From Mugil cephalus (Eukaryota; Chordata; Actinopteri; Mugiliformes; Mugilidae), in the NCBI RefSeq assembly GCF_022458985.1, contig NC_061774.1, positions 15,524,197-15,588,196 of the forward strand: a DNA stretch of 64,000 nucleotides, read 5' to 3'. The translations under genes were made by a program, and so were the position numbers. Below the pieces are notes generated by a model. That model saw only the letters and a list, made by a program, of their open reading frames with translations. It did not search any database and was not told the DNA's origin. Below are positions 29,201 to 64,000 of the stretch, in pieces (position 1 is the first letter of the stretch; each line of letters opens with the position of its first letter).

Positions 29201-32200
29201 AAGTTGCTGCTGTAACAGTTTCCTGACTCCAAGAGGAAGAGGGAAGATGCATATTTCTCCTGAGGTTTTCTTCATTAAGGATGACAGTAGCGCAGTCGTA
29301 TGCTTTTAGTAGGCGTTCTGGTTACTCCTGTGTGTCTGCAGGCCCCGGACCCCGAGAGACCGGCTCTCAGAAATTTCATTACCTCATTAAATCAGTCTCA
29401 AATCATATCCACATTCAAAGATTTACTCACCGCCAATACAGCCATGCTGAAAGCTGTTTGCTAAGCAGTCTATCCCTGAAGCATTTGTCACTACCTCAAT
29501 AGTGATTAGGTGCATCAATTCTGAAATGAGGGTTGTTGCTAGTTAACCTCTGTGAGCACATTAATTGCCATGCTCTGTTTTTCAGTTTTTGTTTTTTTGT
29601 TTTTTGTTTTTTTTTTCTGCCGTCTTTTTTAAGACTACGTGCGAGGCAGCAGCTTGGAATTGTAGCGGGAGGCAGGTGTAGATAATATTGGTTCTACAGT
29701 CTCCAGCATATGGGCCTGTCGTGTCCCATGTGTACGTACCTGCCTCTGCTGCTGTCATCTAATTATGCAGAGCAAACAAAGCTATCTGCCTGCTGCTACA
29801 AGCCCGCTTCTATGAGTTTTGATTGTTACTCATCAGATGGATGTCTTCAACTGATTAAGACATTGTCACAACTGACCCGTAGAAAATCACCAAAATCTAC
29901 TTTCCGTTTAGTCATTACTGCTATTGTTGCTGCCAATCTTTGTCATTTTATTTTATCTTGGCACTTAAAAGCTAAGTTGGATTTACATCTGCACAGAGAT
30001 ACTAAAAAGAGGGGGAGGTAAAGGAAGACGAGTGCATTCATTTGATCTCATGCAGCGTGCTTGGGTTTGGAAAGAAAGACATATAACACCATAATACTGT
30101 TATTGTATATTATTTCCATAAAGTAGGTGATTTCTGAGCTATTCAGAGTGCTGTTTCTCATTTCCTCTCTGAATCAACAAAGGGTATATTTAACACAACA
30201 TTTAAACCATTTAGTAGCTTTTTAGCTTTTAACATAAATGTTTAGCAAAGTCCTTCCACCCATCATGCACATTTTCACTGAGGGAGATCTAATTTCTGAG
30301 AGTTTCGCATTACTTCCTGTAAGTATATAAAGCAGATGACCATCTTGTTCTGTTAAATGAACATATTGTATTTCTGGCAGCTTTTCATTTCTTCCACCTA
30401 TGCCACCATTGTTGCTTAACATAAACCAGATGACTTAATTTGTCCTGCTTTCCATGTGTCCTGAGAATTTGGTATTGAATTTTATGTTACCTCCGGCCTT
30501 GTCTCGACAATTTTATTTGAACATAAAGCGTTAATGGATCCGTCTTGACACTGCTAATACCTCGTATTGAATCTAGCTGTAAAACTGAATTATAAATGTT
30601 TAAGCCCGGCATCATAAAATGACATTTTCAGCTCAAGGGGGTTAATTGACACTAATTGCCACTGAGCACAGTGGAGTAACCACACACCAAAAACAATGTA
30701 ATTTAACCTCATACTTAGAGTTCAAAGAGTTTAAGTCATTTATTTTTTTTCTTGTTTTCCTGCAGGGGAATGTGAGCCGAGTGGGGATCTGAGTCTGTGT
30801 GGGCTCGTCGATGCTGCTCTCCCTCCATCCTCACCTCCTCCCGCTGCAGAGACTTCACAGCTGGCCTGCCCAGCACACCAGAGGACCACTCCCTCATCTC
30901 CAGCCCTCCCTCTACCGCTTGGCACCGACGTCTCCCTGGGCCTAACGGTGGCCCCCGACCCCCCCTCAGATGAAGCTCCCACTGTAGATCCCCCCTTTCA
31001 CCACACTACCACGTCACTTCCCACCCCAGCTGTGAGCTCCTGGCACCCAGCAGGAAACACCCAGAAAAATACCCTTCCACTGCCCGCTGCCCTCCCGCTA
31101 CCCGCTACAATGATGGAGCCTGGCACTGTGTCTGCCCTGACAGACGAGTGTCTTCTTCAGCCTACCCCAACCTGCCTTGGCTGCTTCATTGAAACCCGCG
31201 ATGCTACTGATCCTAATCCCATTCATAACCCGCCCCATGACCCTAACGCCACCCCTGACACCGAGACTGGGCTAAGCGTAAGGATAGGGGACGTGAGCCG
31301 AGAGGACTTCTCGGACATCAACAATATCAGCATTCAGTGCCTGAGCCATGCGGGGGAGGCAGTGAGTCACTATGGAGAACAGCTCCTCTCTGACCAGCTA
31401 CTTAGCTTTCCTCTGCCGAAAGCCCCAAGTGAGGGCAAGAGAGCTGATGGAAACAAAACAACAGAGGACTGCGATGACCCAGAGGATGATGCAACAGCTA
31501 AGAACCTGTATGAGGGACTTTTACTGGACAAAGTTAGCGGAGAAGAGGTTCTGCTGGCTAATGCCGGCCAGGACTGGGGTTACTTTGAGTCTTTCATCAG
31601 TGAGAGTAAGATGGAACTGCTGGACCTTTGTTCTAAGAATGAACTGTCAGTCAACCTTTTCTCTGAGGAAGATGTTGACAATCTATTTGACGACGAAGAC
31701 GACGATTCAACATTAAGCAGCGATGTCTGTTCACTGAAGATTCGTTACGAGTCTTTCCAGGACAACATGAGGGAAAAAACCAATGTGCTCCAGGAGGAGA
31801 CACAGTTCAACTTCTTCCCTAGTGTCCTGGCCAACTGTGCCAAGAAAGAGGAAGGAGCAGCAGCGGTGTTGAGGAGGAGTACTGAGGAGCTACAGCCCAA
31901 AACGGACGAGCTCATCCTGGAGACAGCACAAGAAGGCAAGGCTGGGGACTGCAGTGGTAGGAGTCCACTTGATGGATCACAAGGCTCACCCATGTCCACT
32001 CCCAAAGTCAACTACCTAATGGACTTCAATTCCACGGAGGAGTCAGGAGAATTCAGCGACGACAGCTCCTGCACTGGCTCCTCCTCAGACACCCTGCAGG
32101 AGGGCAAGTTTAAAAAGGGTCACTCAAAGAGATTCCTCAGCCCCTCCAACCCTCTCAACTACGGCTTGCGCTCCAAGAGAAAAGTCAGATACAGCGACGA

Positions 32201-34976
32201 TTACTTGTATGACGTCGACTCGCTTGAGAGCGAGAAAAATGCCGAGAAAAAAGAGAAAGCTCCCTCTGGTCAGAAAGAGGAGGAGGACGTAGACTGGTGC
32301 CCCAAAAAGCGACGGAAATCCTGTCGCAAAGAGCCACCTGTGGTCATCAAGTACATAATCATCAACAGGTTTAAAGGAGAGAGACTCATGTCAGTGAAAC
32401 TGGGGAAGCTGGACCCTGTGGATGCTACTGTGAGCTTAAATGCTGACACAGTAAGCAAATATGAGACACTGGCTCCTCTGAAGGATTTCTGGCAGGAGAA
32501 GCAAAGAGAGAGACAGGAACAGCTTAAGCTGGCTGCCAGAGATAAACAACACCGCGGTTTTCATCTAAACGGACGCCATCATCGTCCTTTTAATTCTAGT
32601 CATCCCAAAAGGAAATACAAGATTGCAAACAGGCTTAAGGTTCAGAGGATTCACACTGTGGAGCAATCAGCAACAGCACAGGGCTCCCCTCTCTCTGATC
32701 AGGGCCAGGGAGGTGTCACTAAAGAGGAGTCCACCCCCTCGGTAGGAGGAATAATAGCAGCCCCAGGCCTCCCAGTTACATTAGACACAAACTCCATCAC
32801 GCACACAGTCACAGCGAAGAGCCGCTCCCAGGAGAGGGAGGAGAGAGAGGGGAGGAGATTGGGAGGAAATAAAACAGTCAGGATAAGGAAATTCAAAAGC
32901 GAAGCCAGGCTGAGGAGCAAGAAAATGAAAGAGGCAGAAGGAGAGGATGGGAAGAGCGTGACAAATGAAACGGATGCCTGTGTCACTGCGGCACAGATTG
33001 AGGACCCTACTGCTGGGTTAGAACAGGCAGGCATTAGTTCAACCACAGTCAAACCCCATTTCTCTGACAATACCACCACCGCTCACGCATCCGAGGAGAA
33101 ATTTCCCTTTGTTTCATCCACCTGCTCTAACAAAGCACCCTCCTCGGAGGGGGTGGAGACGGGTGTCCCTGTCATCCCAGGGGGCTACCTGCAGACCCTG
33201 TTAGATGCTACAGACTCCTCCAGTGGAGCAGCCATCTCTTATTTCCCCCAGCAGTCCTCTAGGCAGCAGTATCCTCTGGGGCTGTCCCTGGAGGAGAAAC
33301 AGTTTTCTTCGCTGCAGCTCGCACAGAGCTGCGTCCTGTCTCCTCCCTCGGAGTCCGAACTCCAGCAGTCTCCCCAGAACTGCCCTAGCTTTCCCCAGAT
33401 GTGGCACCCACAGCTCTGTGCAAGTCAGAGTTTTGGGCCTGAGACCCCTGAGACTCCCATCTTACCCAACAACTTCCCAGCTGCTGTGCCCCTGAATGAC
33501 AGTCTGCCTGTGTCTAACTACAGCCAGCTGAGCCCTGAGGCTGACAGGTTGCTTTATGAGAAGAGCTACCTGACTGAGGCTGGGCTGCAGCCCGGGGCAG
33601 ATCTGCAAGTGTGTCAGTCTGCTTGTGTGGAGGGCCAGGTGCAATACCAGAGAGGGTCCCTGTGCACAGACAATGGCAGGCTCATCAGCTATGACTCGGT
33701 AGGTTCTCTGTCAGCCTCCTCCAGCAATTACAGCTCCCTCAGCCTCAAGTCCTGTGAGCGAGAGGGTGAGGAAGAGGGCCGAGACAGCTTCTTAGCTCAT
33801 TGCAGTCCTAAAGTGGTGATTCAGCAGAGTGTGGATGCCCTTACTCCACTCAGGGAGTCCTCAGACCTGCTGGATATCTCCAACTTCACCCCTGACAAGT
33901 TTAGACACTCATCACTGTCAGAGCTTTCCCCTCCTGAGACCCCTAACCTGTCCCCCCAGGTGGTCGGCCGTGATATGAAGATGGCAGGGAATGTCGGAGA
34001 ATTCCAGGATGTGAATGACATGAGTATGGACTGCAATAGGGAGGTGAAGTGGAACTGTGACGTTATACAGCAACAGGAGCACACAACAAATGCATATCCA
34101 GTGGAAGACAGCCAGTTTCCGCTGCACAACTTCAATAGTCAGGAGGTCTTAGGTCTAGATAAAAAGGAGCCAGGTGCTAACGAATTTGACGAACAGACTG
34201 GTGAGATGTTGGCTGGTGCCAAAAGCATTAAGTCAAAGAGAAAAGGCAATTGCAAACAGACGGCTGCAGGACAAAGCCCGAAGAAAGTCCGGGCTCCCAG
34301 AGCTCCCAAGTCAGAAAAGGTTAAGGCCCCCAAACAGAACTCGCGTTCCACCAAAAAGATAAAGGCCATGTTAGAGGGTAAGGCAGCAAAGAGCCAGGCA
34401 GGTGGCTGTGGCGCAGGCCTGACTGACAGTAGCAGCACTGGGGACTGGACTGGCACCGGCTGGTCAGAGAGTAACAGCCTGGTAGGGGACGACCAGAGAG
34501 AATTCGAGGAGCCCTCCAATATTCTGTCCAACATTGTCTCGGGCATGGCTGAGGTCCAAAGGTTCATGATGGCCTCAATTGAGCCACTGTGGAATCCGAT
34601 GTCTGAGGCCTGCATGCCCCCCGAGGCCAACAGCCTCAACCTAAAGACCCTCAAAATCTTGGCAGGAACAGAGGCTGACCTGAAGAAAAAAGGAGGTGTG
34701 CTAACGGGGGCTGGGAGAGGCAGAAAGGCCGGAGGAAAGGGAGGAAAGAATCAGGCCAAATTCAACCCCTCTCACCCCTTATTCCCACAGCTAGCTCTGG
34801 GCTGCAACATGTTTGATAAACCCAACTTTATTAACCCCGGGCCTGCGCACAAAAAGCTGTACCGCCACAAGACCAGTGCAAAGTTCCCTCGGATTGAGAC
34901 ACTGAAGGGGAAGCGAGCTGAGAGAGACCCAAATAAGGACATAGCACTGATGACCTCATTTGAGAAACTGAGGTAA
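26292..34976 (+). CDS. nexmif: NEXMIF (KIAA2022), neurite extension and migration factor; exons 26292-26373 and 30766-34976
   Basis: Two coding exons join in phase (ACA G|GG GAA) to give 1,430 residues; the human protein is about 1,500. Exon 1 supplies 27 codons and the start is preceded by an in-frame TGA at 26,280-26,282. The second frame is open back to its acceptor at 30,764-30,765, so the CDS does not start within it. Blocks I recognise from vertebrate NEXMIF are TCLGCFIETRDA (about residues 163-174), YGEQLLSDQLL, an acidic block SEEDVDNLFDDEDDDST (about 326-342) followed by SDVCSLKIRYESFQDN, a basic run PKKRRKSCRKEPP (from about 539) followed by IKYIIINRFKGE, and a C-terminal block ILSNIVSGMAEVQRFMMASI. 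Basic stretches near 1,183-1,240 and 1,342-1,360 fit its nuclear location. NEXMIF is a neuronal nuclear protein needed for neurite outgrowth and migration; human loss causes X-linked intellectual disability. No enzymatic domain is known. The first exon assignment is less certain than the large exon. A fish a/b paralogue label cannot be assigned. Confidence 0.9.
28429..28446. repeat. (GT)n microsatellite
   Basis: A short GT run inside the NEXMIF intron. Confidence 0.8.
28581..28632. repeat. Compound (TC)n-(CGCA)n microsatellite
   Basis: A TC run (about 28,581-28,600) is followed by CGCA-type units to about 28,630. It lies inside the NEXMIF intron. Confidence 0.8.
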
Positions 34977-42492: not shown

Positions 42493-45400
42493 CAGTTCAG
42501 AGCAGAGTGGCAGTGACCAGCCGGAGTCTCAACGCAGGAGGCTGCTGGACCGGCTGGGCAGGGAGGAGGCCTTCTACCAGTTTGTCAACAATCTCAGTGA
42601 TGAAGACTATCGTCTCATGAGAGACAATAATCTCTTGGGCACTCCAGGTACGAAACTGTTAATCTAATTACACTTGTTTAGTCTTGTGGAGGAAATCTGT
42701 GACTGTGTATATATCTTGGTTGCCATAACATCTGTTCACCATTTCCCATGTGATACACCGACTCCCTCATCTCGCTTTATAAATTTCAAACTATTTAGTT
42801 TATAAAAAGATTTCAATGTGCCAGTAATGATCCCGATATAAAAAAAAATCATTGAAAAAATATCGTGGCTTACTCATGCCTTATGTATGTTGTTTATACC
42901 ACAGTGCCTCTTTAAAATAGTAGATGTTCATACTCATACATCATAAGTAATGATGTAAATGAACATTATCTGTTATCACATTTTGGTCAAGAGGGCTATG
43001 AGATATAGAATATAGGAGGTGGTTTAAACTGCTCGGTGTAAGTTTGTTTCTTATTGATTATTGTAAAACCATCGCCCTAATTATCCATATTTTAAATCCC
43101 AACATATTTGATAAATCAAGAGGCCCGTGCATTGTTCAGGTGGTTAAGAAGCGGCCCCAAACTCTTGTAGTCTTAGCTCAATATGAAAGATTGACGCATA
43201 CAAAGAAGGGCCTACTCATTTCCTGCATGCCTAATAGGTTGACTGGCCACATTAAATCTGCTTAGGACTCTGGTTATGACTTTTTTTTTACTTGTTAAAA
43301 AACATGAAACACACCAACAACAGGATCATTTATAATGTGCCAGTCACAAACATCTATAACTTTTGTATTTGTATTATTACCAAAGGCTTTCCTTGGCTTT
43401 CCTTGGAATCATCATCACTGCTAATGGCAGTGATGATGATTCCCCAAAACTATTTTCCAGCAGCTTACTGTGCTTATTTACTCAGCAAGCTGTACCTCAA
43501 CTGAACTACACTGACTAAACTGACCTGTTTTTTTGTGCCCCTTTGGGAAAGAAGAGAGTGGCTTCTCTCTTCCGAATAAAATTAAATGGCAATTTGAGGT
43601 TTTCTGGAGGTGACATGGATTATATACACTGCATACTGCAACGACACATCATGTTTCCTTTCTAGTTGGTAGCAAATGTTACTGCCTCTAGTGTACATTT
43701 GCTGTTTGCTGTTTATGTTGTTATCTGGTCAGATATACAGGTTGCAGCTATTTTGTTATAGCCTACATGTTATTGAGTAATGTTGAGGTTTTGTAGTCTA
43801 CATTATAACATATTGTAACCTAGTTATAGAGACATGATTTGTAAATTTAAGTTATTTTCGGACACCAGACTGCCAAGAAAAAAATCCTAACGGAAACCCT
43901 GTTTTTGAATTTGCCGCTGTGGTCAAAATGCAGCAGTCTATGGACTATTGAATACGCCGAAATCCATTTCTGTCCCCGGACAGTGGAGAGGTGAATGTAA
44001 GTTTGGAGCATCCTTTAGTGGAGCACCCTACAACGAGAGGGCATTGAATGGACAGTGGCATGCCCTGGTAAGTCTGGAGGTTTTAAGTTTTGTCCTGTTG
44101 CTGTGATCAAACAAAACCAAACAGCAATGCAAAACCATTATTTTCCATTATTACAAATGTACAACATTTCTGGAACAATTTTAATTCTCCACCTGCCGTG
44201 ATATGTGGCTGGATGTAGTGCATCCCTCTGTCAACATTTCCTCCTCTCCTCCTGCATTACGTCAAAGATGTCGTTTTCATTGTGGGGAGTTCAGCTGTCA
44301 CATTCTTTCAGCCAACTGCACTGTCCCAACTGGTCACTCTAAAGAAGAGGAACCTCTAGGTGGAATATGTGGATTACCAATATCTTTATTTTTTATTGTC
44401 AGTAACAGAATTTTGTTTTGTCTCTTTTAGGAGAGGTGACAGAAGACGAGCTGTTCAGCAGGCTTCAGCAAATCAAAGATGGCCCAGAACAGCAAAATAA
44501 TACCCCAAGTACTGAGAGTGTAGAAGCTCCAGCTGGTATGTTTCCATTTCTTCAGTTCTTTTTCTGTAGTTATTTTGCCTGTCTGATTTATTTATTTATT
44601 TAGATAAAATTGTGATTTGTCACTTGTTAATTCTTACAAATTTCAGAACAACCAGAAAGCTCTGAGGATCCTGCAGGTGGGGATAGTCTCTTGGACTGGT
44701 TGAACACAGTGAGGCGCACCGGCAACACCACCAGAACCGGTCATCGTGGAAACCAGTCATGGCGGGCTGTAAGCCAGACCAACCCGAACAGTGGCGATTT
44801 TCGCTTCAGCCTGGAAATCAGTGTGAACCGCAACCTGGCTGAACAGCAGGCAGTTGCTGAAGGGGAGCAGCCGTCTTCAGAGCAGACCCCAGAGCAGTCT
44901 TCAGCCCTGGTCCCAGAACAATCTCCAGAGCAGTCTTCAAGCCTGGCCCCAGAGCAGACCCCAGAGCAGCCTTCAGAGCAGACCCCAGAGCAACCTTCAG
45001 GGCAGACCCCAGAGCAGCCTTCAGGGCAGACCCCAGAGCAGCCTTCAGGGATGATCCCAGAGCCGTCTTCAGGGCTGATCCCAGAGCTGTCTTCAGGCCA
45101 GTCTTCGGAGCAGACCCCGGTGCACTCTTCGGAGCAGCCCTCAGAGCAGTTTTCGGAGCAGCCCTCTGAGCAGCTTTTGGAGCAGCCCCCAGGGCAGCTT
45201 TTGGAGCAGACCCCAGGGCAGCTTTTGGAGCAGACCCCAGGGCAGTCTTTGGTGCAGACCCCAGAGCAGTCTTTGATGCCGACCCCAGAGCAGTCTTTGG
45301 TGCAGACCCCAGAGCAGTCTCCAGTGGTTGAAGCCACGATGCTAAATGAAGATCCACAGGTTCCTATGGAGACGGAAGTGGTGGAAGAACCAGTTGTGGA

Positions 45401-46742
45401 GGAGTTGGCCGTCATAGTGGAACCAGAGCCTGAACTTGAAGAGGTTGTTTCACACGAGGTTTTAGGAGAACCTCCCAGCTTGCCTTCTGGCCCACCAATA
45501 CAGTCAACACAGCCAACACTTTGCACTTCTCCACGCAGAGGACAAAGGAGAGCCCGCAGTCGTAGTCCCGAACCACGCAGGACTAGGGCCCGACTAGCCA
45601 GGAGCCGCTCCCCTCTCAGCTTGGATCAGCTTGATGGTATACCTAACCCACGGCATACATACAGTTCACAAAGCCCCAGTTCTTCCACCAATTCTCCCCC
45701 TTTGCCTCAAGTAGAGGGTAGCTCTCGGACTCGACAACATGTACTTTCCAGACAAAGCACCTCAGATGTTGATGTTCAGCCATCTAGGGCTGGAGCTGAA
45801 TCTGTCCCAGAGGCCCAAAATGTTGGCTCTCAGGAAGGAGATGCTGGTGGTGGGGAAGGGGGAACAGCAGGACGCCGCCCCCCTACTATTATGCTTGATC
45901 TCCAGGTGCGTCGCGTGCGTCCAGGCGAATACCGACAAAGGGACAGCATCGCCAGTCGTACTCGTTCACGCTCCCAGAACTCAAACAACACATTTCTTTA
46001 TGAGAGCGAGCGCGGTGGCTTTCGTAGGACTTTCTCTCGCTCTGAACGTGCTGGTGTTAGGACCTACGTCAGCACTATTCGCATCCCCATCCGAAGAATC
46101 TCCGATGCAGGTTTGGGAGAGGCAACCTCAATGGCTCTCCAGTCTATGATACGGCAAATTATGACCGGCTTTGGTGAGCTCGGCTACCTCATGGATTCCG
46201 ACTCTGATTCTTCAGATTCAAACCGTGGAGCCAACACACCTGCAGATGTGGAAGCTCTCAACAATCCAGATGCTGCTACTCCTGACGCCCCTGTTGCCGA
46301 TGTTGACGAGCAGCCAGTTACTGCTGGAGTAAGGGGAAGAACAGTTGAGACTGATACGGATGAGGGTCTTGTCACTGGTCCACCGGCTTCTGGTGGCAGG
46401 GCTCGACCTAGACCACCTATCAGCCTAGAGGAGCCCAGCTCACTGCCTTTCCTGCGGCTTGCTCACTTCTTTCTCCTAAACGATGATGATGAGGACCAGC
46501 CACAGGGGCTGACCAAAGAACAGATTGACAACCTCTCAATGCGCAACTTTGGTGAGAGTGATGCCTTGAAGACTTGCAGTGTCTGTATTACAGAGTATGC
46601 AGAAGGGAACAAGCTACGCAAGCTTCCCTGTTCACATGAGTACCATGTGCACTGCATAGATCGCTGGCTCTCTGAAAACTCAACGTGCCCCATCTGCCGC
46701 AGGGCTGTCCTGGTGTCGGCCAACCGAGAGAGTGTGGTGTAA
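42479..46742 (+). CDS. rlim: RLIM (RNF12), RING-H2 E3 ubiquitin ligase; exons 42479-42647, 44431-44535, 44647-46742
   Basis: Three coding exons join in phase (G|GA GAG; G|AA CAA) to 789 residues, longer than human RLIM (624). The N-terminus [20 protein letters not shown] and the following [19 protein letters not shown] are family hallmarks. They are followed by a conserved region ([20 protein letters not shown]), an expanded Gln/Pro/Glu/Ser repeat (about 166-316), the arginine-rich basic region ([20 protein letters not shown]), [19 protein letters not shown], and a C-terminal RING-H2. The RING ligands fit C735-x2-C738-x14-C753-x-H755-x2-H758-x2-C761-x10-C772-x2-C775, so the ligase should be active. 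RLIM ubiquitinates LIM-domain cofactor LDB1/CLIM, REX1 and other nuclear targets, and controls imprinted X inactivation in mouse. The 3' neighbour position relative to NEXMIF matches mammals. Upstream frames may modulate translation. Confidence 0.95.
42648..44430 (+). other. RLIM intron 2
   Basis: GT (42,648) to AG (44,430), about 1.8 kb. It contains a near-perfect hairpin at 43,405-43,443 and no exon I can support. The next intron (44,536-44,646) is only 111 bp. Confidence 0.75.
43405..43443. repeat. Inverted repeat, 17-bp arms with 5-base loop
   Basis: GGAATCATCATCACTGC is followed by TAATG and then the exact reverse complement. In RLIM pre-mRNA it would fold into a stable 17-bp hairpin. 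The stem is shorter than a usual pre-miRNA. Confidence 0.85.
44868..45325 (+). repeat. Coding minisatellite in RLIM, 24-bp unit
   Basis: Tandem 24-bp units such as CTTTTGGAGCAGACCCCAGG plus GCAG encode an octapeptide of the type PSGQTPEQ or LLEQTPGQ, with variants (30-bp and 18-bp steps occur). It adds about 150 residues rich in Q, P, E and S. The repeat is free of stops on both strands in several frames, giving antisense ORFs of 261 and 179 codons that are artefacts. Confidence 0.9.
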
Positions 46743-49318: not shown

Positions 49319-49327
49319 AGTTAACAC

Positions 49328-49528: not shown

Positions 49529-49812
49529 GTACTCACACAGCAGTACAACATTTCCATGAATGAACCAATAAAGTATCATGACAAGCTTCACGAGTGAAGA
49601 CTTTAAACAGATGTCCTGGACTGCATTAGTTAGTACAGGTATTAAAGTAATAACTAACTGTGTAATATATGTATCTTCAAAGAGAGAACAAACACCCCAC
49701 TCTGACATGCGTAATGAAAGATTAATCCAGCTCCGACTACTCAAACCAAGGTTAGTGTAACAGAGGTGGAAAAACAAGGAAGTACCGAGAGAGTTGCGGG
49801 ACTACAACTAGG

Positions 49813-51039
<1,227 letters not shown>

Positions 51040-51335
51040 GCCTTTCCTTGGCCTTGTTTGTGAGCATCTAGAAATACATCCAAACAGCTCACAAAGCCCA
51101 ACAACCTCTGTGACCATTTGGTCTAAATTACACAGTTACTGTTTTTACAGTGAAGTATTTAGATCAAAATTGCTGTTAATGGAACAACCCTGAGCCGCTT
51201 GATTTAGACAGGGCAGATAACATCAGCTAGTTGTGGAGTTCTGCTTAGGTTTTCACTTCAGCAATGGTCCAATGGTCTTTTGGTTGTAATATAAGATGAA
51301 AAAGCTACATGATCAAACTTTTGAGATTTTATTTT

Positions 51336-51341
51336 AATAAA
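51336..51341 (+). terminator. GLOD5 polyadenylation signal (AATAAA)
   Basis: Canonical hexamer about 300 bases after the stop codon, followed by T-rich sequence. Confidence 0.7.
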
Positions 51342-53279: not shown

Positions 53280-53284
53280 TAGGT

Positions 53285-53935: not shown

Positions 53936-54270
53936 CATGGAAAAATTCAACAAGTGAGGGTTGTTGAGAAGTTAGTAATGAATCAGACTCAGTGGTCACT
54001 TCTGTTGGTTTATTTGCAAATATTCTGGGCAGAAGGAGACACATACACAGAGTAAAACCCAGACAGTATGACACACCGAATGTGGGGTGACATCATGTTT
54101 TATAGTCCATACCAATATTTAAGTGGACTTCTTTAAACAAGATGACACCAAAAATAACATTCCTGTCAAATTCCTGTCATTAGACCCCAAGATGATGTAT
54201 TTTCTGGTTTATCTTAAACCGATGAGAGCTGCATTTAAATTGTGTTGACATGGACAATTAGACATTTATC

Positions 54271-54650
54271 TAACAAGACCCTTTAAACTCTACTTATGTC
54301 ACAGAACTGAAAGCAGTCACTCTCCATGGTGCAATGACTTGACTTGAAAATATTTGACAATAATAACACATTATTCAGATGAACAATAGTTCTCACTATT
54401 GTGCCTGAATAAAACTTTCTACTATTTCCTTGAGTGCACGTTTATCTTTTTAGTAGCGTAGTGAGTAGCCTAGTAAAAACTAGGTCAGTCATTTTGTAAA
54501 TGAGAACGGTGTTTCCATGTTATCTTATTGAACAGTTCACTGTAACAGAAGTTCCTGTTTAGTACTGCCAGCTACTGTTGCCAGCTTGGAACTGTTATTC
54601 TACAGTGCACCTACTGTGACCTACAACAACAGTTAAGTACTGTAAAAATA
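54271..54650. repeat. Duplicated segment, copy A
   Basis: Begins TAACAAGACCCTTTAAACTC and runs to TTAAGTACTGTAAAAATA. It aligns closely to 56,209-56,512. Copy A carries about 55 extra bases near 54,356-54,410 that copy B lacks. Near its right end is a hairpin GTACTGTAA-AAATA-TTACAGTAC. No coding potential. Confidence 0.8.
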
Positions 54651-54847
54651 TTACAGTACTGTGCTATAGTAAAATAAACATGACTGTATTATACTGTTAG
54701 GACTTTGGTCGCAATTAAACTGTTATTTTACAGTTTCTAGAGTATTCACCATTAACAACTTACCACTGTAAAACTTTAGAATACAATCTTCACAGTGATA
54801 TAAACAAATTATTTAAAAGTTTTACATTTAAAAATGAAAACCCCTGA

Positions 54848-54899
<52 letters not shown>

Positions 54900-56208
54900 G
54901 AAAGTAGCTACCACAGAAATGGCTCGGACAAGAGATGGCCTTACAACATAAGGCATTTATTAAAGCTGAACATTTTCAATATGTACAAAATCCATAAAAA
55001 CACCATTACTTCTCGAACTATGACAAGTGATGGCTAACATTACATTCATTAAACTTTGTATTTTCCTCTCCGGGTCAAAGTTGGCCAGGTCTAGTTTGAC
55101 TGTTTGCACAGTAAAGAATACAAATCGTTAGCTATTTCAACTTCATTTAACCTTACTGCTGTTCATTTTTTCCTTTCCTTTTTTTCCCTTCCTCCTTCCT
55201 CCTTTCAAACAAAGACCACAGGTGGGTTGAAGTCACTGCATCAAATGCTCAGCAGATAAGAAAACTAAGTAAAAGCTAACTTAGTAACAGACATTCCATT
55301 AACAACACATCAGCCACACTTGAAAGATGCATTAGGCTAAAACTGTGAGTTTGCATGTGCCTGACATGTGCAAATGTATTTCTGCAGGTTTTAGCACATG
55401 TTGCAAGTTATCATGTTTTAACTTCAGGCCTTCACAGCAAACGAATCTTTGAAATTACTCTCTCAAGAAAAACAAAACAAAAAAAACAAAACATTACATT
55501 AACTAACTTTTAGCGACTCTCATAAACCGTAAAATGGTCAAAAGGAACCTTGTAGCCCACCTTAATTAGATCTGACAACAAATCAACCGCCCAAGCTAAC
55601 GTATGCTAATTTAAGTACTTCAACAGAAAGCTAAACTTTTGTCCACATAGTTGCTAAATGAGGCTAATGCTGGCATGCGTATGCTAGCGTGCGGCACATA
55701 TTTTTGACCCAATCTTTTCGGCAAAAAACAGTCAATAAAATGTTAATCCAACACAAAATCACATTATATTAAGCTGACTTTTGCAAAATTATATTTACCT
55801 TCTTAAGAAAGACACTGGGACAGGATGGATGAGGGTGCGCTGCACAGTTTGGTGCTTCTTTGAAAACTAATTCTTTATCTTCTTGTTATTGTGTCCTCAA
55901 TCTCAAATAAAACACTGATGTGCAGGCCTATTTTTAATTCCATTTAATTTTTTATTTTGCTCAAAAGAAACTATTAAACGGACCGAAGATCAAGTCTGAT
56001 TTAAACAGAAAAAGAAAAAAAATATATTATATTACATATATCTTTCACTATAGGTTTTTCTGACGTGTTCTCTGCTTTTTCACCATGTTTCGATTTTATT
56101 TTCATATGAATTGACTTTCATTAATATTTACTTGACCTTTGCAATGTGCTACTAGATCTTGACATGTGAGCACCACCTTGACAGTGGGGCAATGTGCCAC
56201 CCATCAAA
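54651..56208. other. Spacer between the two duplicate copies
   Basis: AT-rich, with an (AAT)n run at 54.85 kb and no gene. A short stretch AATCCAACACAAAATCACAT at about 55,744 matches the sequence immediately following copy B (AATCCAACAGAAAATCACAT). This suggests copy B is a shortened version of a longer unit. Confidence 0.6.
54850..54897. repeat. (AAT)n microsatellite
   Basis: About 16 AAT/ATA units within the spacer. Confidence 0.9.
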
Positions 56209-56512
56209 AGTAACAAGACCCTTTAAACTCTACTTATATCACAGAGCTGAAAGCAGTCACTCCCCATGGTGTAATGACTTGACTTCAAATATTTCTTCTA
56301 CTATCTTCTCACATGCATGTTTATCTTTTAGTAGTGGTAAGAACTAGGTCAGTCATTTTGTAAATGAGAAAGGTGTTTCCTTGTTATCTTATTGAACAGT
56401 TCACTGTAACAGAAGTTCCTGTTTAGTACTGCCAGCTACAGTTGCCAGCTTGGAACTGTTATTCTACAGTGCACCTACTGTGACCTACAGCAACAGTTTA
56501 GTACTGTAAAAA
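56209..56512. repeat. Duplicated segment, copy B
   Basis: Same orientation as copy A about 1.94 kb upstream. The best-matching core (CATTTTGTAAATGAGAA through CTACTGTGACCTACA) differs at only a few positions. It lies just 3' of the ACOD1 polyadenylation site. Confidence 0.8.
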
Positions 56513-56694
56513 TAATCCAACAGAAAATCACATTAAATCTAAATACTTTCTGTAGTATTGTCTCTGATAAGTTGTGTTGATTTCATTTTTACATAATGTG
56601 TTTTAGTAGCACTTTGAGCACTCACAGGTATTATTGTGAAATTACTTTCTAAGAAAAAGGACGGTCACAAGCACATTTCTCACATCTTATTCCT

Positions 56695-56700
56695 TTTATT
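56695..56700 (-). terminator. ACOD1 polyadenylation signal (AATAAA on minus strand)
   Basis: TTTATT on the plus strand, about 170 bases downstream of the ACOD1 stop, predicts a short 3'UTR. Confidence 0.7.
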
Positions 56701-56866
56701 AAAATGAGAACAAACAGATAGAAATGGTACACATATGGAACAAAAATAGCTCTTATTTACAAGCATATAAGCCTAATCATAAAGCTTACTAACAATAGTT
56801 GTATCTCAATGTAGCCAGCACATTACACATTGGACGAGGATTTTTATATATATATATGCACAATGT

Positions 56867-59800
56867 TCATTGAAGGTTTGCGAGAAGGGCCCTGCAGTCT
56901 GCATGTCTTTCCAGCTCCTCCACCACTTCAATCAGCCGCTCCACCTTCTCAGAGGAGAGCACCACCTCTGCGTTGTTCCTGAACTTCTTCCTCAGGCTCT
57001 CGTTGGTCAGCGGGTTGCGCCAGTGACCGTAGAAGGTGTCACAGCGCCCGTTCAGAATGTCTCCCCCAACTAGTGTCACCTGGACCTCACCATACATTTT
57101 GTTGAAATTAGCCGGGTTGTCGCCAGGATGCTCCACACGAACGCGGCTCAGGAGGGCGTGCAGGTCGGGGCGGCTCATGGCAGCAGGGCTGAAGGACTGA
57201 ACGGTGACCTCACCATCCAGGAGAGCGCTGCAAGCATTGAACTGGAAGGAGTGGCGTGCCTCGTGCTCAGACTCAGGGAAAGGCCTGTTGATGTATTTAG
57301 ACTGGGGCACTCTGAGCAGGATTTCCTGCACTTGAGCAGGGGAGACGGTACCAGGACCAACTCCCACGAGAAGCTTATGGACCGAGGCTGCAGCATCTGC
57401 TACCCAGTGCATCCCCAGATGGGCGGGGAAGCGCTTGAAGCCCATGTCCTGCACCTCTAGCAGGAACATGTGGCCTTCATCGCTGGGTGATTCTAAAGCC
57501 TGCGGCACATAGTCTTCATAAAAAGCATTAAAGCCGGCCACCCCTGCGACAGCATCCAGGACCAGAGGACTGGCCTCTAGGCCCCTGGAGGCCAGCAGAG
57601 CAGCTTCCAGCCCCAAACGTGTAGCATTGCCTATGTGGAGGGGTTTAGACTGAGTGGCAGCATTAGCCATTGGCGCTCCTGCGAGAGAAGCAGCTATAGC
57701 CAAGGCATGACTGCTCTGGAACGAATCCAGGCACAAGAGTCGAGCACAGGCAGCGGCACTTCCCATAGTCCCCACCACGCTGGGAGGGTGAAACCTGAAG
57801 AGAAAGACATACAGAGAGACTTCAGCCAGGGATTTTGTAACTATTTCCTCGTTTAGATGCACTAAATTATTTTATTTATGATCGAGCCCCTGTGTAAAAA
57901 GATTTTTGATTCTCCACATTCAGAGACAGACAGTTTATTTTATGGGTGTTAAAGGAAATGAATTTCCAGACATTTGATAAACAAGCAAATAATGTGGTGG
58001 GTCATTTGACTGGGTGTAGACACATGCCAAATGAGTCCTCAGTGATATTCTGCTCCACCTGACTAACTGTGCAAACAGTACCCCCGGGCCCTCTGCTGTT
58101 CCTAAGATGAACATAATAACACACCTTTCACAGCTCATTGGCATAACTAAGAGACTGCACATTGCTACAGCTGCCTGTAAACCACACTGCAGAACTCAGC
58201 AGAGTCAAAAAGGGCTCTTTTTAAGTCATTATCCACGCTGAATACAAATACCTTCAACAAGGATCTGGCTTTATATCAGTGCTACGTTTGGCTGACCAAA
58301 TACAGCAGAAAACATACTATAAATCTGCTACTTGCCTATAAATTACAGTATCTTGATCCAAAATGGATGCTTTGAAGCACTCACCTCTTTGGGATGTTGT
58401 GGGCCTCATTTGAGAACCTCAGTAGTCGGCCCTGGATCTCAATGCCGACATTGAAGGCCAGCAAGAAGTCAAGGCCACTGGGTTTGTTGTTGGCTGGCAT
58501 CATATCACTGAGAGCTAGAACAGCGGGAAGGACGGCTCCGGAGGGGTGGGTGGCAGGGTGCCATGTGTCATCAAAGTCCATGGAGTGAGTCTGCCAAAAG
58601 AAGATTTGAAACATCAAGCCGTTGTACGTGATAGCACAGCATTTATCTTTCACCGATGGCAATTAGGCCACTGTTGATTAATTTCCTTGGTAGTAGCCAG
58701 AATGTAAACATGAGTTTGCTTTTCCTGAAAAAACCACAGTAGTCAATTATGATATTCACTCTATGACAGGTGTATTTTAACTGGAAGACCCTCCTAAATT
58801 ACAACATTAATAACAAGCTTCAACCACTGGAGGCAAATACAGAAATGAGTTCGACATCCTGATGAATTCTTTGGAAACTGAGACCAAGCCAAGGACCGAG
58901 CAAACACATGGAATCATGGAAATGTTCAGTTTCATCAAGCACCACCATTGTTTGCTGCACAGACTGTGCTAGCAGTTGGAATTAAAAATGTGTATGTCTT
59001 TTTTTGGTTGCCGTCATGGGTTAGCACGGCTGAGACTGTCTGGTGTTCTGGGGGCACTTACCGCCACTCCATTGACGAAAGCCGCCAGTGTCGGGGAGAG
59101 CCTGGTGTCCCTGCGTCCATACACAGAGCTGATGTCATCAGGAGCATACATGTGCTAGACGCAAGTAGGAAACAAAAACTGTCAGAAACATATTCTTAAA
59201 GCGGCATCTTCCAGTCCCAGTCATGAAACAGCGGTATTTAAGTAGCTGAACTGTTTCACTATGTAACAATGTATTTTAATAGGCTGTTTTCACTGAGTTC
59301 AGAGTACTGTTTATGTAAGATTAGCTTTAATCTGCATTTAAGCTTGCATTGTCTCCGACATGACGTTAACAAAAGCTGCATTGTATCAGATAAGATGTTA
59401 ACAAAAGCTTATATTCATTCCTTTCCCTTTGTCTCACCTGGCAGTGCTGCAAGGCCAATTCAAACACATCAGTTGTGCTTCCAATCAGGCCAACGCCGAT
59501 GCTGTCCAGCACCATCCTTTTACTGCGGTGGAGCACCAGAGAGGACAAATGCTGGGGCTTAATTTCACTGATGAATCTTCCAAAACTGGCTGTGACTCTG
59601 TCCTCAGATGTTAACGGCTTCAAGGCTGCGTTGAAGCAAGGGGGGGCAGTTAGTACAGTAGCAAGTCTGAAAAACTGAAATCATGCTCAAGACAAACAAA
59701 CAAAGAAAAAAAAAGGTTTTCTCAGAGTTTGGAAATAGCTGTCCACTTACCTTCCATTGCAGACATATGCAGTCCTCTGACAGTCCCCACTGGTCTAAGG

Positions 59801-60181
59801 GGTTTCTGCAGGACAAAGAACACAGAGTCTTTTCTTTAGTCTTCTTCTACTAATACAAATAACCTGCTGAGGGCACGTTTTATTACAGGCTGCTGACATG
59901 AAGCAATTTTCTTCGTGTCCTTTGAACACTGCCTTTACTCTAATGTTACTCAAAGAAAGAGCTATTGTGCTGAAGAGGTGACTCTGTAACAGGTGCGGTT
60001 TAGAGTGATAAATCTGTGCAACGTTTACCAAGATTTAAAATCTCCCCTGTACAATTTTAAATGTACACAGACAGTCTCAGGACAAAATTAATGTTGCTAA
60101 TTGCAGTCTATCCATTCATCCCCATTAATCAAACACAATTAGGAATATAAAAATAGGTTTTACCAATAGCACGGAGAACAT
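56867..60181 (-). CDS. acod1: ACOD1/IRG1, cis-aconitate decarboxylase; exons 60181-60164, 59805-59751, 59625-59438, 59154-59062, 58590-58385, 57794-56867
   Basis: Six coding exons join in phase to 495 residues (human 481). It belongs to the MmgE/PrpD superfamily and decarboxylates cis-aconitate from the TCA cycle to itaconate, an antibacterial and anti-inflammatory metabolite. Residues described as active-site in mammalian ACOD1 are all present, shifted by 30 in the N-terminal half: D123, T127 and H133 (in HSMDFDDTWHPATHPSG), H189 (KRFHPPSVVG) and K237 (NAATQSKPLH). The tyrosine of the YINRPFP block is Y354. Two tiny first exons encode MFSVLLKPLRPVGTVRGLHM, basic and free of acidic residues, which looks like a mitochondrial presequence. 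The minus-strand promoter has a TATA box at about 60,298-60,306 and a kappaB-like site upstream. It is divergent with the SatP-like gene. Zebrafish has both irg1 and irg1-like copies; which this corresponds to is not settled. Confidence 0.95.
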
Positions 60182-60269
60182 GACTTCAGGCTTGAGTTTT
60201 TGTCAAGGCAAACTTCTTTCTTCTTTTTCCTCGTTGCTGTGGATTTGCTGCCACTAGTGCTTGGACGAT

Positions 60270-60600
60270 GCTGATGCTTGTCTGAAGACAACACCTGCCT
60301 TATATAGTCCAGGGCTCATACAACTCCAACACCAACCCCGGAGAAGCAGGAAGGCTGGAAAATCCACAACAAAATCTTATCTTTCTAAGAGGAGAAATTC
60401 CCATGGAGGTCGTCATCATTATTGTCTAGTGGGAAGAGGAGGAGCAGGAAAAAAAAATCTCACCATATTGTGAGAGGTGTGTGTCAGTGATGTCATCTTT
60501 CAGCTTACTCTCAGTTTTGTGTGGGTAATTTTCATCTGCTCCTCCTACGCACAGGGAAGGGCTATTTATGACAAACTTTATACCCTGCTTCAACACAACT
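60270..60600. promoter_or_regulatory. Shared divergent promoter of ACOD1 and the SatP-like gene
   Basis: Minus-strand TATATAAGG at 60,298-60,306 predicts ACOD1 transcription from about 60,270. A plus-strand CTATTTATG at about 60,562-60,570 predicts a start near 60,595 for the transporter-like gene. Between them lie GGAGAAATTCCC (60,391-60,402; minus strand GGGAATTTCT matches the NF-kappaB consensus at 9 of 10 positions) and TGATGTCA (60,488-60,495; one mismatch from a CRE/ATF site). Function is inferred from motifs only. Confidence 0.5.
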
Positions 60601-60632
60601 CAGCAGATCACCTGTTGAAACATCTTCACCAG
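60595..60632 (+). other. Predicted 5' non-coding exon of the SatP-like gene
   Basis: The sequence ends CATCTTCACCAG at 60,632 with a strong donor GTAAGA. The matching acceptor is TGTGCAG ending at 61,465, or TGCAG ending at 61,485. The 5' boundary is estimated from the TATA-like element. Confidence 0.45.
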
Positions 60633-61465
60633 GTAAGACTTTATTTTCATTTTATTCTTTACTGCTTTTTCACTTACCTGGCTGCAGCACAACATTCTGG
60701 TGATGTGACACAGGTTTTTACTCTAATATGTAATATTTACAATATTTACACTTGTTGAAACATGCTCTGTGACAAAACAGAAACTATACAAGTTCATAAC
60801 ATATCATGATAATACAGCTTAGAAATACAGTTACTGCTTAGAAAATAATCAAAATACACACCTGCTTTGGAGTGACTGCATATTAATCTGTTAGTTAAGG
60901 ATACACTGCGCCTTTATGTCAGCCTACGGAAGACTGGGCAGGGCTGGCAACTCTCAGGTTTCTGTGTTCACTGAGATAAGACAGAAATGAGCCAGAGAGA
61001 AGAGAGCTTCAGTTTGACTCTAACTTGAGTACAGTTTTTGTGACATGGAATTGAATTTGTTGGATTGTTATCTCTGTCAGTCTCTTATTGTTATTATTAT
61101 TATTAATTATTACAATTATTATTATAAGTCTATGTCATGTTATGTTTAAGAGCATTGTCATTTGTTGTTGTCAGCCTCTTTATGCAAGTCTTCACAGCTA
61201 GTAGACACTGTAGATTGTTCTCTGTGTGATTGACTTAAAATAATGAAGTTGTTTTTTCAAACTATGCTCTCCCTATATAGGACTTTTATTGTGTATTACA
61301 TTCATATTTAACATCACAACAGTACCAATGCATTATTGTTGCAGTAGATAGGTAAAAATATTCAATATTCAATTATTTAAAATTATATCTGAATCTGGAC
61401 TTGCACTTTTGACTGTTTGTGTATATATAATAATTCATGGTGGGTTTCCTGTGTCATTTGTGCAG
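60633..61465 (+). other. Predicted 5'UTR intron of the SatP-like gene
   Basis: About 0.83 kb, AT-rich with ATT-type runs near 61,085-61,125. No ORF of note. Confidence 0.45.
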
Positions 61466-61503
61466 TTGTTTTGATAGGCCTGCAGATTGAAAACAAAGAC
61501 ACC

Positions 61504-64000
61504 ATGGCAACACCAGATGGATTTCCTGCCAGTTTCTATGGTGAACCAGGAGTGTTAGGCATGTTGTCCAATGGGATCAGTGCCTTCCTTGTACTTCTAC
61601 AGAACTTCAATGCAGCTCACACTGGCATTGCAGCACAAGGAGTGGAGAGCATCCTCACAGGTAAAACCTAAAGTAAATGTGCAAGAATGATATCATAAAA
61701 GAATAAATGAAACAATGGTTAGAATTAAGGTTATTTCAATTTTATGTTTTTCAACAGGTGTTCATCTCATCCTGATCGGTGGTATATGCCAGCTGGTGGC
61801 GGGACTGCTTTCCTTTCGAAAATACGATCACCTGAGTGGCACTGCCTTTATTGGTTATGCTGCTCTTTGGGGTAGTTATGGTGCCACCCAAATTTACTTT
61901 GGTGCCTTATCTCAAGAGACCTCATCTATGTCAAATCAGATGAATTCGTCTCTGTCCACGATTGTGCCGAATAACATGTCACTGAATAACCTCACAGACA
62001 TGCCAGTTTGCTATTTATGCCTATCCAAGACAGAGTCAGCGATTGCAGGTCTGATCCCTTATATCATTTTGTCCTTCCTTCTTGCATTTTGCTCTGCCAC
62101 AGTCAACTACATCATGCCCTTTGTCTTTGGGGCCATCACAGCCACTTTAGTCTTTGAAGCAGCAGCTCTAGTAACAGGCTCCTGGGCCCGTGTGGTCTCT
62201 GGGGTCCTGGAGTTGCTCATTCTGCTCTTTGCCATGTATGGCTCAGCTGCACTGCTCATCAAAGGCCTGACTCAACGTCTCGTCCTCAAAGGCTTTGGGA
62301 CCCCTCTGTTTAATGTCCTCCTGCTAGGAACCCCCAATTCATCAAGTGCCCAGAGCATTGGTCAGGAGAAGAAAAAGAACACAAAGTATGCTGAGCCCAT
62401 GGCCTTGGGTTTCTTTTGTGACTCCGTTGCTCCCTTTATCTACGCTTTCTATGGCTTTGGGTACATGAAATCATTTGGCTTAGGAGCTGTATGGGTCTCC
62501 ATCATTGCCTTTGCCCAGCTGTTCTCCAGCTACTATGCCCATCTGCGCCAAGACTGCTACCACACTACAAAGTTTGGCTTCCATGCCACTTATTGGCTGA
62601 TCAAGGCTTGGGACGAGTTTGTGATATCTACTCTGATTGTAAACGAGAGCAAAGTTGCTTCTGCAAGGGAGGCAATGGTGGGAGATTGGTTCTTTGTGAT
62701 GGCAGCCTTGGTGCTCTGTGTGGGAAGTCTGAACATGGACGCCCTGGAACTGATTCACAACATGCTCTTCGTCCTGGTCACGATATCCACAATCCCCCAG
62801 ATCCCGCTCCACAGTTATTACATCTTCTTTGGTGTAGCTTGCTCCCTGTTCACCGCAGTCTCCATCTATGGCACCTTCACACGTCTCATCAACTCAATAG
62901 CAGAAAAGTCTCTCATCCCAGTGGGACCACAGCCCATCTCCACCGAGCAGCTGAAAAAAGTTTTGAGTTGCAGAAGATCTACACCAACAGACCAGAAGCA
63001 ACTGCCCAAAACTGACCAGGACTCAGATGCTCTGTTCTACTTTACAAACGGAGTCGCAGCTCTTTCAGCTCTTCATTCAAATGCTTCCAATCAGAATCTT
63101 AGTTTCCTTCATCAAACTGTCCCTTGGGTCCTCATCTCTGGCGCAATCATCCAGGTCTACGTCAGCAGACTGCAAGTCACAGGAGGTGGCCAGTTTGGGT
63201 CAGTCATCTCATCCATCTATGTGGGCGTATGGGCAACATGGACTTGGTTTAGGTTTGCAGGTAAGTTGTACAAACATGTGAGAAACATTTATCTTTGTGA
63301 TCTCCACAACATTCTGATTCATTTGAATCTTTTCTAGGTAACCTGCTTCAGCTCTCCACAGAGGCTACCTATGGATTTACAGCAGGAGCCATTGCTCTCC
63401 TGGTCATTAATGCTTTTCTCATGCTGATCGGTAAGCTTAAGCACATTTTTTATTTATTTTTACATTTTAGGGGGTGTTGTTTTGTCTGGTTTTCAACGCT
63501 TCTTTCATTTTTTGTCAGCTGCCTATAGGAACCTGGTTCTGCTGTTTCTAACAACAGTCATGGAGGTTGCTCTGGTCTGCCTCCTGCTTTCCACCCTTCA
63601 GCGACTTCCATACGATCTAGAAAGTAAGTACATATAAAACTGCATGTATGCATGAAGAAATACTTCTTAATTAACCAGTTGAACTATTTATATCATCTCA
63701 ATAAAACATTGTGACAACTGGTTCTTGTTTGTTGCAGTTGCCATGCTCTCACTGATTACAATCATTTGTATATATGGAGTTCTGGCATCATTGGTTAATG
63801 GCATCTTCTCACAGAGATTGCTCCCTATGGGTCCTCCTTTGATAAAGGTAAACAGTGAAGATGACATCTTCAGATGTTCTCTCTTCAAGTCAAATGGATC
63901 GCATGCTGTATAATACTCTAAAATCCATCCACCATCTCTGTGTCTGGTTATAGAGTAGAAAGAAGCAAGAGACATCTTCAGAGCCACCCTGTCCACTGGC
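61504..64000 (+). CDS. SatP-like (GPR1/FUN34/YaaH family) triple-module membrane protein, partial at 3' end; exons 61504-61660, 61758-63260, 63338-63430, 63519-63623, 63738-63847, 63954-64000+
   Basis: The ATG at 61,504 has a good context (GACACCATGG). Exons join in phase to about 671 residues before the window cuts the last one. The protein reads as three modules of six hydrophobic segments each. Module 1 (about 13-250) starts GEPGVLG and has the strongest family signature: GGICQLVAGLLSFRKYDHLS then GTAFIGYAALWGSYG, like the G.aQl.aG..eF..gn and TAF.sYG.FW motifs of acetate/succinate transporters. Module 2 (264 on) starts AEPMALG and has FGFHATYWLIKAW. Module 3 (474 on) starts DSDALFYF, with the proline lost, and has FGSVISSIYVGVWATW. 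Modules 2 and 3 end alike (IYG..(T/L)..LIN.I..., then LIPVGP or LLPMGP). Three N-glycosylation sequons lie in a module 1 loop. No vertebrate function is known to me. The ACOD1 neighbour suggests dicarboxylate or itaconate handling, which is inference. Confidence 0.8.

Follow-up and report, generated by a model that had tools for sequence, protein, structure and literature searches.

A head-to-head ACOD1/irg1-like gene and triple-SatP transporter-like gene in Mugil cephalus: a candidate unit of itaconate synthesis and carriage

In the analysed stretch of Mugil cephalus DNA (the window, 64,000 nucleotides), an ACOD1/irg1-like gene on the minus strand stands head-to-head with a plus-strand gene whose product is related in sequence to the SatP transporters over three domains. 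The pair may be inflammation-inducible, with a plus-strand protein of the vertebrate ATO type that moves itaconate or a carboxylate linked to it; we give this reading a probability of about one third. Itaconate is methylene-succinate and serves as an antimicrobial metabolite.

The sequence-only reading had regarded such a pairing as new in a vertebrate. Triple-SatP ATO proteins of vertebrates are already published, occurring in every major lineage except mammals and carrying a C-terminal YrdC domain in almost all cases (PMC13316224, iScience 2026; example Oryzias melastigma A0A3B3D9A3). The terms itaconate, aconitate, irg1, acod1 and synteny are absent from the main text of that paper, so the new part is the pairing with ACOD1. 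No statement of an ACOD1-ATO gene pairing was found in the literature searched, nor any paper treating a YrdC protein together with cis-aconitate decarboxylase.

The two genes and their products

The minus-strand gene is of the ACOD1/irg1 type and is predicted to encode itaconate synthase. Its six exons, bounded internally by AG acceptors and GT donors, join into a single open frame of 495 codons and a stop (Table 1). MmgE/PrpD domains span the full length of the product (Pfam; N domain, E 1e-64; C domain, E 7e-42). In the PDB, cis-aconitate decarboxylases match best (E about 1e-163), and ACOD1 is the closest member of the family, at about 547 bits versus 116 bits for IDS-epimerase, the next named member. 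The alignment with 7br9_A shows identity at 255 of 451 aligned residues (56.5%), including chain positions 93, 97, 103, 159, 207, 272, 277 and 319 (Tyr); position 318 is Gln in 7br9_A and Lys in M. cephalus. We take D93, T97, H103, H159, K207, K272, H277 and the Tyr at 318/319 to be the active-site residues. The N-terminus MFSVLLKPLRPVGTVRGLHMSAM, encoded by exons 1-2, is basic and devoid of acidic residues and, judged by its letters, looks like a mitochondrial presequence. The complete minus-strand ACOD1 gene claimed earlier is therefore confirmed.

The plus-strand protein comprises at least 671 aa, and its gene extends past the window end. The interval 56867..64000 thus holds the ACOD1 coding sequence entire and the triple-SatP gene in part. 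With 31.6 bits against Pfam PF01184 (GPR1/FUN34/YaaH; gathering score 25, E 1.6e-7), the earlier assignment of a SatP-like membrane protein was borne out as to family; its architecture had been understated, since three SatP-like domains are predicted to follow one another along the protein, of which the third has weak support. With the first 53 residues removed from the query, the NCBIfam models AceTr_1 and PRK10659.1 gave 22.4 bits (cut-off 50) and 18.6 bits (cut-off 297). The SatP HMM scores of domains 1 and 2 were matched by 0/1000 local-window shuffles each, which rules out for these two the chance likeness of a hydrophobic protein. The score of domain 3 was matched by 30/1000 shuffles and is weak. 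Reversed sequences scored -1.2 and -0.4 bits for domains 1 and 2, and 1.0 versus 2.7 bits for domain 3. By BLASTP, domain 2 aligned with E. coli SatP over nearly its whole length (22% identity, E 6e-6 in a single comparison); domain 3 matched domain 2 with E 4e-8.

A model of domain 2, whose input alignment was built from SatP sequences, has six helices at pLDDT 60.7. Its best four Foldseek matches are all SatP (E 0.05-0.18, TM 0.38-0.40), none of them reaching E 0.001. A 500-aa single-sequence model of the central exon was unusable (pLDDT 39).

By tblastn at E 1, no second copy of ACOD1 or of the transporter was found in the 64-kb window, the additional matches being the transporter's own domains aligning with one another. 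No relatives of either protein were confirmed in viral contigs in a search sensitive to close relatives only, and no RNA families reached gathering score in 46000-64000.

Table 1. Features of the Mugil cephalus window (window coordinates)
Feature	Position	Strand	Basis
Neighbour: NEXMIF/KIAA2022-like gene (presumably NEXMIF), large exon	30735..34976	+	DUF4683 E 3.7e-73
Neighbour: RLIM/RNF12-like RING gene (presumably RLIM), large exon	44631..46742	+	RING Pfam match
ACOD1/irg1-like gene, predicted itaconate synthase (cis-aconitate decarboxylase)	56867..60181	-	495 aa; Pfam, PDB matches
ACOD1 coding exons	60181-60164, 59805-59751, 59625-59438, 59154-59062, 58590-58385, 57794-56867	-	spliced model
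First coding exon of ACOD1	60164..60181	-	spliced model
Putative TATA box of ACOD1, CTATATAAGG on minus strand	60301..60306	-	pattern
Putative intergenic promoter segment between TATA-like sequences	60307..60562	.	
TATA-like TATTTA upstream of triple-SatP gene, putative function	60563..60568	+	pattern
Probable non-coding first exon of triple-SatP gene	60595..60632, start approximate	+	sequence reading
Vertebrate ATO / triple-SatP transporter-like gene	61504..64000, open at window end	+	spliced model, PF01184
Coding exons of triple-SatP gene	61504-61660, 61758-63260, 63338-63430, 63519-63623, 63738-63847, 63954-(64000, open)	+	spliced model
SatP-like domain 1, about residues 12-240	61537..62320	+	SatP HMM 23.6 bits
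SatP-like domain 2, residues 256-446	62366..62938	+	SatP HMM 12.3 bits; BLASTP
SatP-like domain 3, about residues 467-656, spread over exons	62999..63847	+	SatP HMM 2.7 bits; BLASTP

The region between the genes and co-induction of presumed counterparts in zebrafish

Both gene models agree with the head-to-head arrangement proposed before. The distance of 0.3 kb given with it holds between the TATA-like sequences (257 bases, from 60306 on the minus to 60563 on the plus strand) and fails between the start codons, which lie 1323 bases apart; a probable non-coding first exon of the plus gene accounts for the longer distance. A putative donor GTAAGA starts directly after this exon, at 60633. A second AT-rich hexamer, TTTATA, occupies 60577-60582, where the canonical TATAAA is read on the minus strand only. 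One-mismatch NF-kB-like sites occur at 60366 (minus) and at 60392 (plus), the latter overlapping one at 60402 (minus); these three matches in two separate places compare with 0.53 expected from mononucleotide shuffles of 60250-60620, a weak excess. An ATF/CRE-like TGATGTCATC lies at 60488 (plus). Exact matches to the patterns used for NF-kB, C/EBP, STAT, IRF and PU.1 were absent. One catfish paper places acod1 near gtf2f2, on the chromosome carrying hoxd3a; as this neighbourhood differs from that of M. cephalus, fish may have two ACOD1-type loci.

Published zebrafish data support co-induction of the pair by way of presumed counterparts. The zebrafish irg1l gene rises together with si:ch211-153b23.3,.4 and.5 in Shigella infection and in three toxicology data sets. 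One WGCNA module counts irg1l,.3 and.5 among its five hub genes (PMC11140123), and at very low PFOS in F0 three of the top five up-regulated places go to irg1l,.4 and.5 (PMC9228135); the top five of F2 at low PFOA in the same study include irg1l and none of the si:ch211-153b23 genes. Across 18 exposures, the.4,.3 and.5 genes rank second, fourth and fifth among 64 genes in correlation with irg1l (r 0.90, 0.88 and 0.86; PMC8877790, Table 2), the median over 54 genes being -0.07. Since sult5a1 and si:ch211-207n23.2 correlate with irg1l equally well in that table, co-induction singles out no partner. Of six papers that name the si:ch211-153b23 genes, two lack irg1l, and of 48 papers with irg1l, four belong to those six, many of the 48 perhaps being few-gene studies.

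The.4 gene is labelled YrdC-like, which links it to the ATO family because almost all vertebrate ATOs carry YrdC (PMC13316224). The three genes and irg1l are probably the zebrafish counterpart set, orthology resting on this one label. The co-regulation expected from the sequence-only reading thus stands in the zebrafish data, subject to that orthology.

Substrate and possible roles of the pair

Alignment of the three domains to E. coli SatP revealed no intact NPAPLGL, FLY or SYGFW motif. Counterparts of NPAPLGL are partly kept as EPGVLGM and EPMALGF and are degenerate in the third domain. Residue N8 of E. coli SatP, the motif Asn, is replaced by E, E and D in domains 1, 2 and 3, and the gate Phe (F17) by N, D and N. 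Each of the three domains keeps Trp76 and Leu12; Tyr72, Pro9 and Gly13 are each kept in two of them. Because presumed pore-lining residues differ in every domain, family membership does not reveal the substrate, and an acid at the N8-equivalent site could disfavour carboxylate anions. These changes agree with a rival reading in which the ATO protein, induced in inflammation along with ACOD1 in epithelial cells and macrophages, carries no itaconate but some other small solute (acetate, lactate, a further short-chain acid or an ammonium-related flux). Its relative CaAto1 is a proton-driven acetate carrier (PMC13316224), and E. coli SatP carries acetate, lactate and succinate. In zebrafish, irg1l responds early to external bacteria, a response that the authors consider possibly epithelial (PMC3206475), at sites where microbial acids would be plentiful. 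This explanation leaves the presence of an itaconate synthase as promoter partner unaccounted for; at less than even odds, it is the one to which we give most credence.

Divergent gene pairs less than 1 kb apart are common in vertebrate genomes, and shared regulatory DNA alone yields co-expression. The pairing could accordingly be an accident of promoter sharing between metabolically unconnected neighbours. Against this, the ACOD1 product and the ATO partner are both carboxylate-related, and if the genes are linked in zebrafish, their co-induction there would point to an enduring association; we find an accident rather unlikely. That the protein is a former transporter, now a membrane-anchored sensor or enzyme that reads carboxylate or bicarbonate through its YrdC fusion and makes a carbamoyl-AMP-type product in infection, would suit the drifted motifs and the YrdC domain of almost all vertebrate ATOs (PMC13316224), but is highly improbable, as the hydrophobic six-helix-type domains are kept and any YrdC part of the M. 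cephalus protein would lie outside the window.

In the itaconate-carriage reading, a single short promoter region would drive both genes. ACOD1 would make itaconate in mitochondria. In the ATO protein, three SatP-type six-helix domains would be fused, with YrdC probably next, beyond the window. Three N-glycosylation sequons (NSS115, NMS125, NLT130) in the domain-1 loop past the third helix faintly favour the secretory pathway over mitochondria, and on their account the protein may reside in the plasma membrane or in that of an endosome/phagosome. The argument is weak because four more sequons outside this loop, at 246, 348, 494 and 499, cannot all be extracellular in a simple topology. By adjacency and chemistry, the cargo would be itaconate, or else a carboxylate with a flux that shifts when itaconate is made; transport would, by family, be proton-coupled and be directed towards microbes or between cells.

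A wider version is doubtful: non-mammalian vertebrates would possess a dedicated unit of irg1-like and triple-SatP/YrdC genes under one inducible bidirectional promoter, with the carrier loading itaconate extracellularly or into the phagosome, and mammals would have lost this carrier and use other transporters. The vertebrate ATOs were reported in 2026 with no known substrate, and an ACOD1 partner provides a concrete dicarboxylate hypothesis. If true, it would account for itaconate delivery in fish, and a microbial type of synthase-carrier gene pairing would exist in vertebrates, lost in mammals.

Comparison with known systems

Aspergillus terreus cadA reportedly lies in a cluster of itaconate genes. 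This itaconate synthase gene, with its dedicated carrier genes mttA and mfsA, resembles the M. cephalus pair in arrangement only. In PMC7419537, MttA belongs with the mitochondrial tricarboxylate carriers and MfsA with the MFS exporters; unlike the M. cephalus ATO, both fall outside the SatP family. SatP and itaconate exporters are handled there as separate families, and E. coli SatP carries succinate (Km 1.18 mM). Fungal GPR1/FUN34/YaaH members are variable in the NPAPLGL, FLY and SYGFW motifs as well. Bacterial SatP (E. coli satP; PDB 5ys3, 5zug) is related in sequence to domains 1 and 2; it has a single domain and forms a hexamer, whereas the M. cephalus protein has three domains with Asn8 and the gate Phe17 replaced in all.

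Neither ABCG2 nor SLC13A3 is known to adjoin ACOD1 in mammals. Mammals make itaconate and move it by these two proteins (PMC13307414); they belong to unrelated families and perform the task proposed for the ATO protein, itaconate passage across the cell membrane, which counts against a dedicated ATO carrier.

The zebrafish set, an irg1-like gene jointly induced with a YrdC-labelled gene, is likened to the M. cephalus pair by label and expression. Almost all vertebrate ATO/AceTr proteins end in a C-terminal Sua5/YciO/YrdC domain; the M. cephalus gene leaves the window ahead of the place where one would be expected. These proteins comprise about 900 aa with three tandem Gpr1/Fun34/YaaH domains (PMC13316224), and the M. 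cephalus protein, of at least 671 aa, likewise has three.

Organization of the divergent gene pair

The minus-strand gene is complete, as the sequence-only reading had claimed for an ACOD1 (itaconate synthase) gene. Its six-exon frame has regular internal splice junctions in the spliced model, both MmgE/PrpD domains are found by Pfam, and the closest solved structures in a PDB sequence search are cis-aconitate decarboxylases (E about 1e-163). Identity with the ACOD1 chain 7br9_A is 56.5% (255/451). Residues D93, T97, H103, H159, K207, K272, H277 and Tyr 319 of this chain, taken here to be the active-site residues of cis-aconitate decarboxylase, are the same in the window protein; position 318 is Gln in the chain and Lys in the window. 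Going by its sequence, the protein should produce itaconate. Compared with 7br9_A the protein is extended at the N-terminus by about 29 residues (query residue 35 pairs with chain residue 6), and this terminus looks like a mitochondrial presequence. The direct repeat next to the gene possibly represents the ends of a mobile element.

Features of the gene pair and its surroundings (window positions)
Feature	Position	Strand	Description
ACOD1-type gene, complete	60181-56867	minus	six coding exons, single open frame, 495 codons
SatP-type gene	61504-window end	plus	six coding exons, regular junctions, at least 671 residues; 3' end beyond window
ACOD1 TATA box	60306-60301	minus	sequence pattern
TATA-like TATTTA upstream of plus gene	60563	plus	257 bases from ACOD1 TATA box
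TTTATA upstream of plus gene	60577	plus	271 bases from ACOD1 TATA box
Apparent non-coding first exon of plus gene	ends 60632	plus	sequence reading
Direct repeat, 183 nt	54473-54655 and 56337-56519		96% identity between copies, spacing 1.86 kb; a short way 3' of ACOD1
RLIM-like and NEXMIF-like large exons	30735-46742		upstream of the pair
Array in RLIM-like exon	44869-45324		long, degenerate, tandem, ahead of RING domain; units 24/48/72 nt; PEQS/PEQT-type peptide repeats
(TAT)20	50458-50517		perfect microsatellite
(TAGAA)12	51637-51696		perfect microsatellite
(AAT)16.7	54848-54897		perfect microsatellite

The plus-strand gene had been proposed to encode a SatP-like membrane protein, and PF01184 on residues 12-103 agrees with this (31.6 bits against a gathering score of 25, Pfam). 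The PDB sequence search gave no significant match: SatP stood at E 0.07 and 0.08, and the third match, 7tgh_A3, a 'transmembrane protein, putative', at 0.55. Against a profile made from E. coli-like SatP proteins, the three tandem domains scored 23.6, 12.3 and 2.7 bits, and 0, 0 and 30 of 1000 local shuffles per domain, respectively, were as high. E. coli SatP aligned nearly end to end with domain 2 (22% identity, E 6e-6). BLASTP matched domain 2 with 3 (E 4e-8) and 1 with 3 (E 0.037); no match of domain 1 with domain 2 was obtained at E 10. From these comparisons the protein is read as three SatP-type domains in tandem. Predicted structures contributed little to the identification. The central exon modelled alone gave pLDDT 39. 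Domain 2, modelled with 22 SatP alignment rows that bias the result towards SatP, gave six helices at pLDDT 61, and the best four Foldseek matches of this SatP-biased model were SatP, none of them significant.

Vertebrate ATO proteins of the SatP/ATO family were described just recently as having about 900 aa and three Gpr1/Fun34/YaaH domains, almost all with a C-terminal YrdC domain, and two proteins were suggested to form a SatP-like six-domain ring (PMC13316224). Since such three-domain proteins are described there, the plus-gene protein is probably a member of this family.

The two genes are transcribed away from each other, as had been proposed. The accompanying distance of 0.3 kb holds for the TATA-like sequences (257 bases) and not for the start codons, which are 1323 bases apart because the plus gene seems to open with a non-coding exon. 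Matches between the TATA-like sequences are weak, namely one-mismatch NF-kB matches at two places and the ATF/CRE-like TGATGTCATC; exact NF-kB, C/EBP, STAT, IRF or PU.1 patterns, in the forms used, are absent there.

Two large exons lie upstream of the pair, one RLIM-like with a RING domain and the tandem array, the other NEXMIF-like. Microsatellites lie between them and the pair. Human RLIM and NEXMIF are located together on Xq13 and human ACOD1 on 13q. The neighbours of the pair are of the Xq13 type, unlike the 13q surroundings of human ACOD1. Catfish acod1 is found near gtf2f2, on the chromosome carrying hoxd3a (PMC9358014). These different surroundings, together with the Xq13-type neighbours, suggest that the window may hold a second, irg1-like ACOD1-type locus of fish.

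Co-expression of the presumed zebrafish counterparts

The zebrafish genes si:ch211-153b23.3,.4 and.5 are presumed counterparts of the plus gene, because.4 is annotated as YrdC domain-containing protein-like (PMC6980646) and vertebrate ATO proteins carry YrdC (PMC13316224). In Shigella sonnei infection, irg1l (zebrafish irg1-like),.4 and.5 are among the top 50 of 337 changed genes and occupy consecutive rows of the heatmap; sult5a1 appears lower in it (PMC6980646). The five hubs of one WGCNA module are irg1l,.3,.5, zgc:100868 and noxo1a (PMC11140123). At very low PFOS, the top five upregulated genes in F0 are irg1l,.4, psma5, si:dkeyp-1h4.8 and.5 (PMC9228135). Across 18 exposures, Pearson correlation with irg1l was 0.902 for.4, 0.882 for.3 and 0.861 for.5, ranks 2, 4 and 5 of 64 genes, with the tfr1b row (17 values) omitted and two rows having one missing value each (PMC8877790, Table 2). 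These values support co-expression but do not prove it: every gene in the table was preselected for a change, and the exposures lack independence. In the same table, sult5a1 (rank 1, 0.907) and si:ch211-207n23.2 (rank 3, 0.902) match the irg1l profile no less closely than.3,.4 and.5 do, and rank 6 is tcp1 (0.62). The co-induced set is wider than irg1l and the si:ch211-153b23 genes and includes these two.

Of the six open-access papers naming si:ch211-153b23 genes, four, all on zebrafish, also list irg1l. Other data speak against the association. The F2 low-PFOA top five contain irg1l and none of the si:ch211-153b23 genes (PMC9228135). In the two remaining papers irg1l is absent: one, on stim2 knock-out, lists only.3 (adjusted p 0.18), and the other, on stickleback methylation, lists.5 on Chr4. 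Among 48 open-access papers containing irg1l, the four zebrafish papers are the only ones to name a si:ch211-153b23 gene. Immersion in E. tarda raised irg1l 10 to 50 fold (PMC3206475).

Possible function and substrate

Most likely, ACOD1 and the ATO gene would be induced together in infected tissue, itaconate would be made in the mitochondria by ACOD1, and the ATO protein would transport a carboxylate through the cell membrane or that of the phagosome. Itaconate is methylene-succinate. E. coli SatP transports acetate, lactate and succinate (PMC7419537). The domain-1 loop carries three N-glycosylation sequons, a weak pointer to a secretory-pathway membrane since four further sequons are located elsewhere.

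The residues expected to line the pore count against a straightforward reading. The motif Asn of SatP (E. coli N8) is replaced by an acidic residue and the gate Phe (F17) by Asn or Asp in all three domains, the alignment of domain 3 being uncertain. That the same type of change recurs in domains 1-3 (61504-63847) would fit a substrate shift preceding the domain triplication. The probability that itaconate is a physiological substrate is put at about one in three.

None of the terms itaconate, aconitate, irg1, acod1, zebrafish and synten- appears in the main text of PMC13316224. The ATO-ACOD1 pairing was not found in titles or abstracts among the matches listed from the open-access literature, which leaves aside bioRxiv and most subscription papers. 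In yeast Ato1, gate changes alter specificity and L219A permits growth on succinate, so that a substrate change is plausible in either direction (PMC13316224). Vertebrate ATO proteins are present in every major lineage except mammals (PMC13316224), and in mammals itaconate is transported by ABCG2 and SLC13A3 (PMC13307414).
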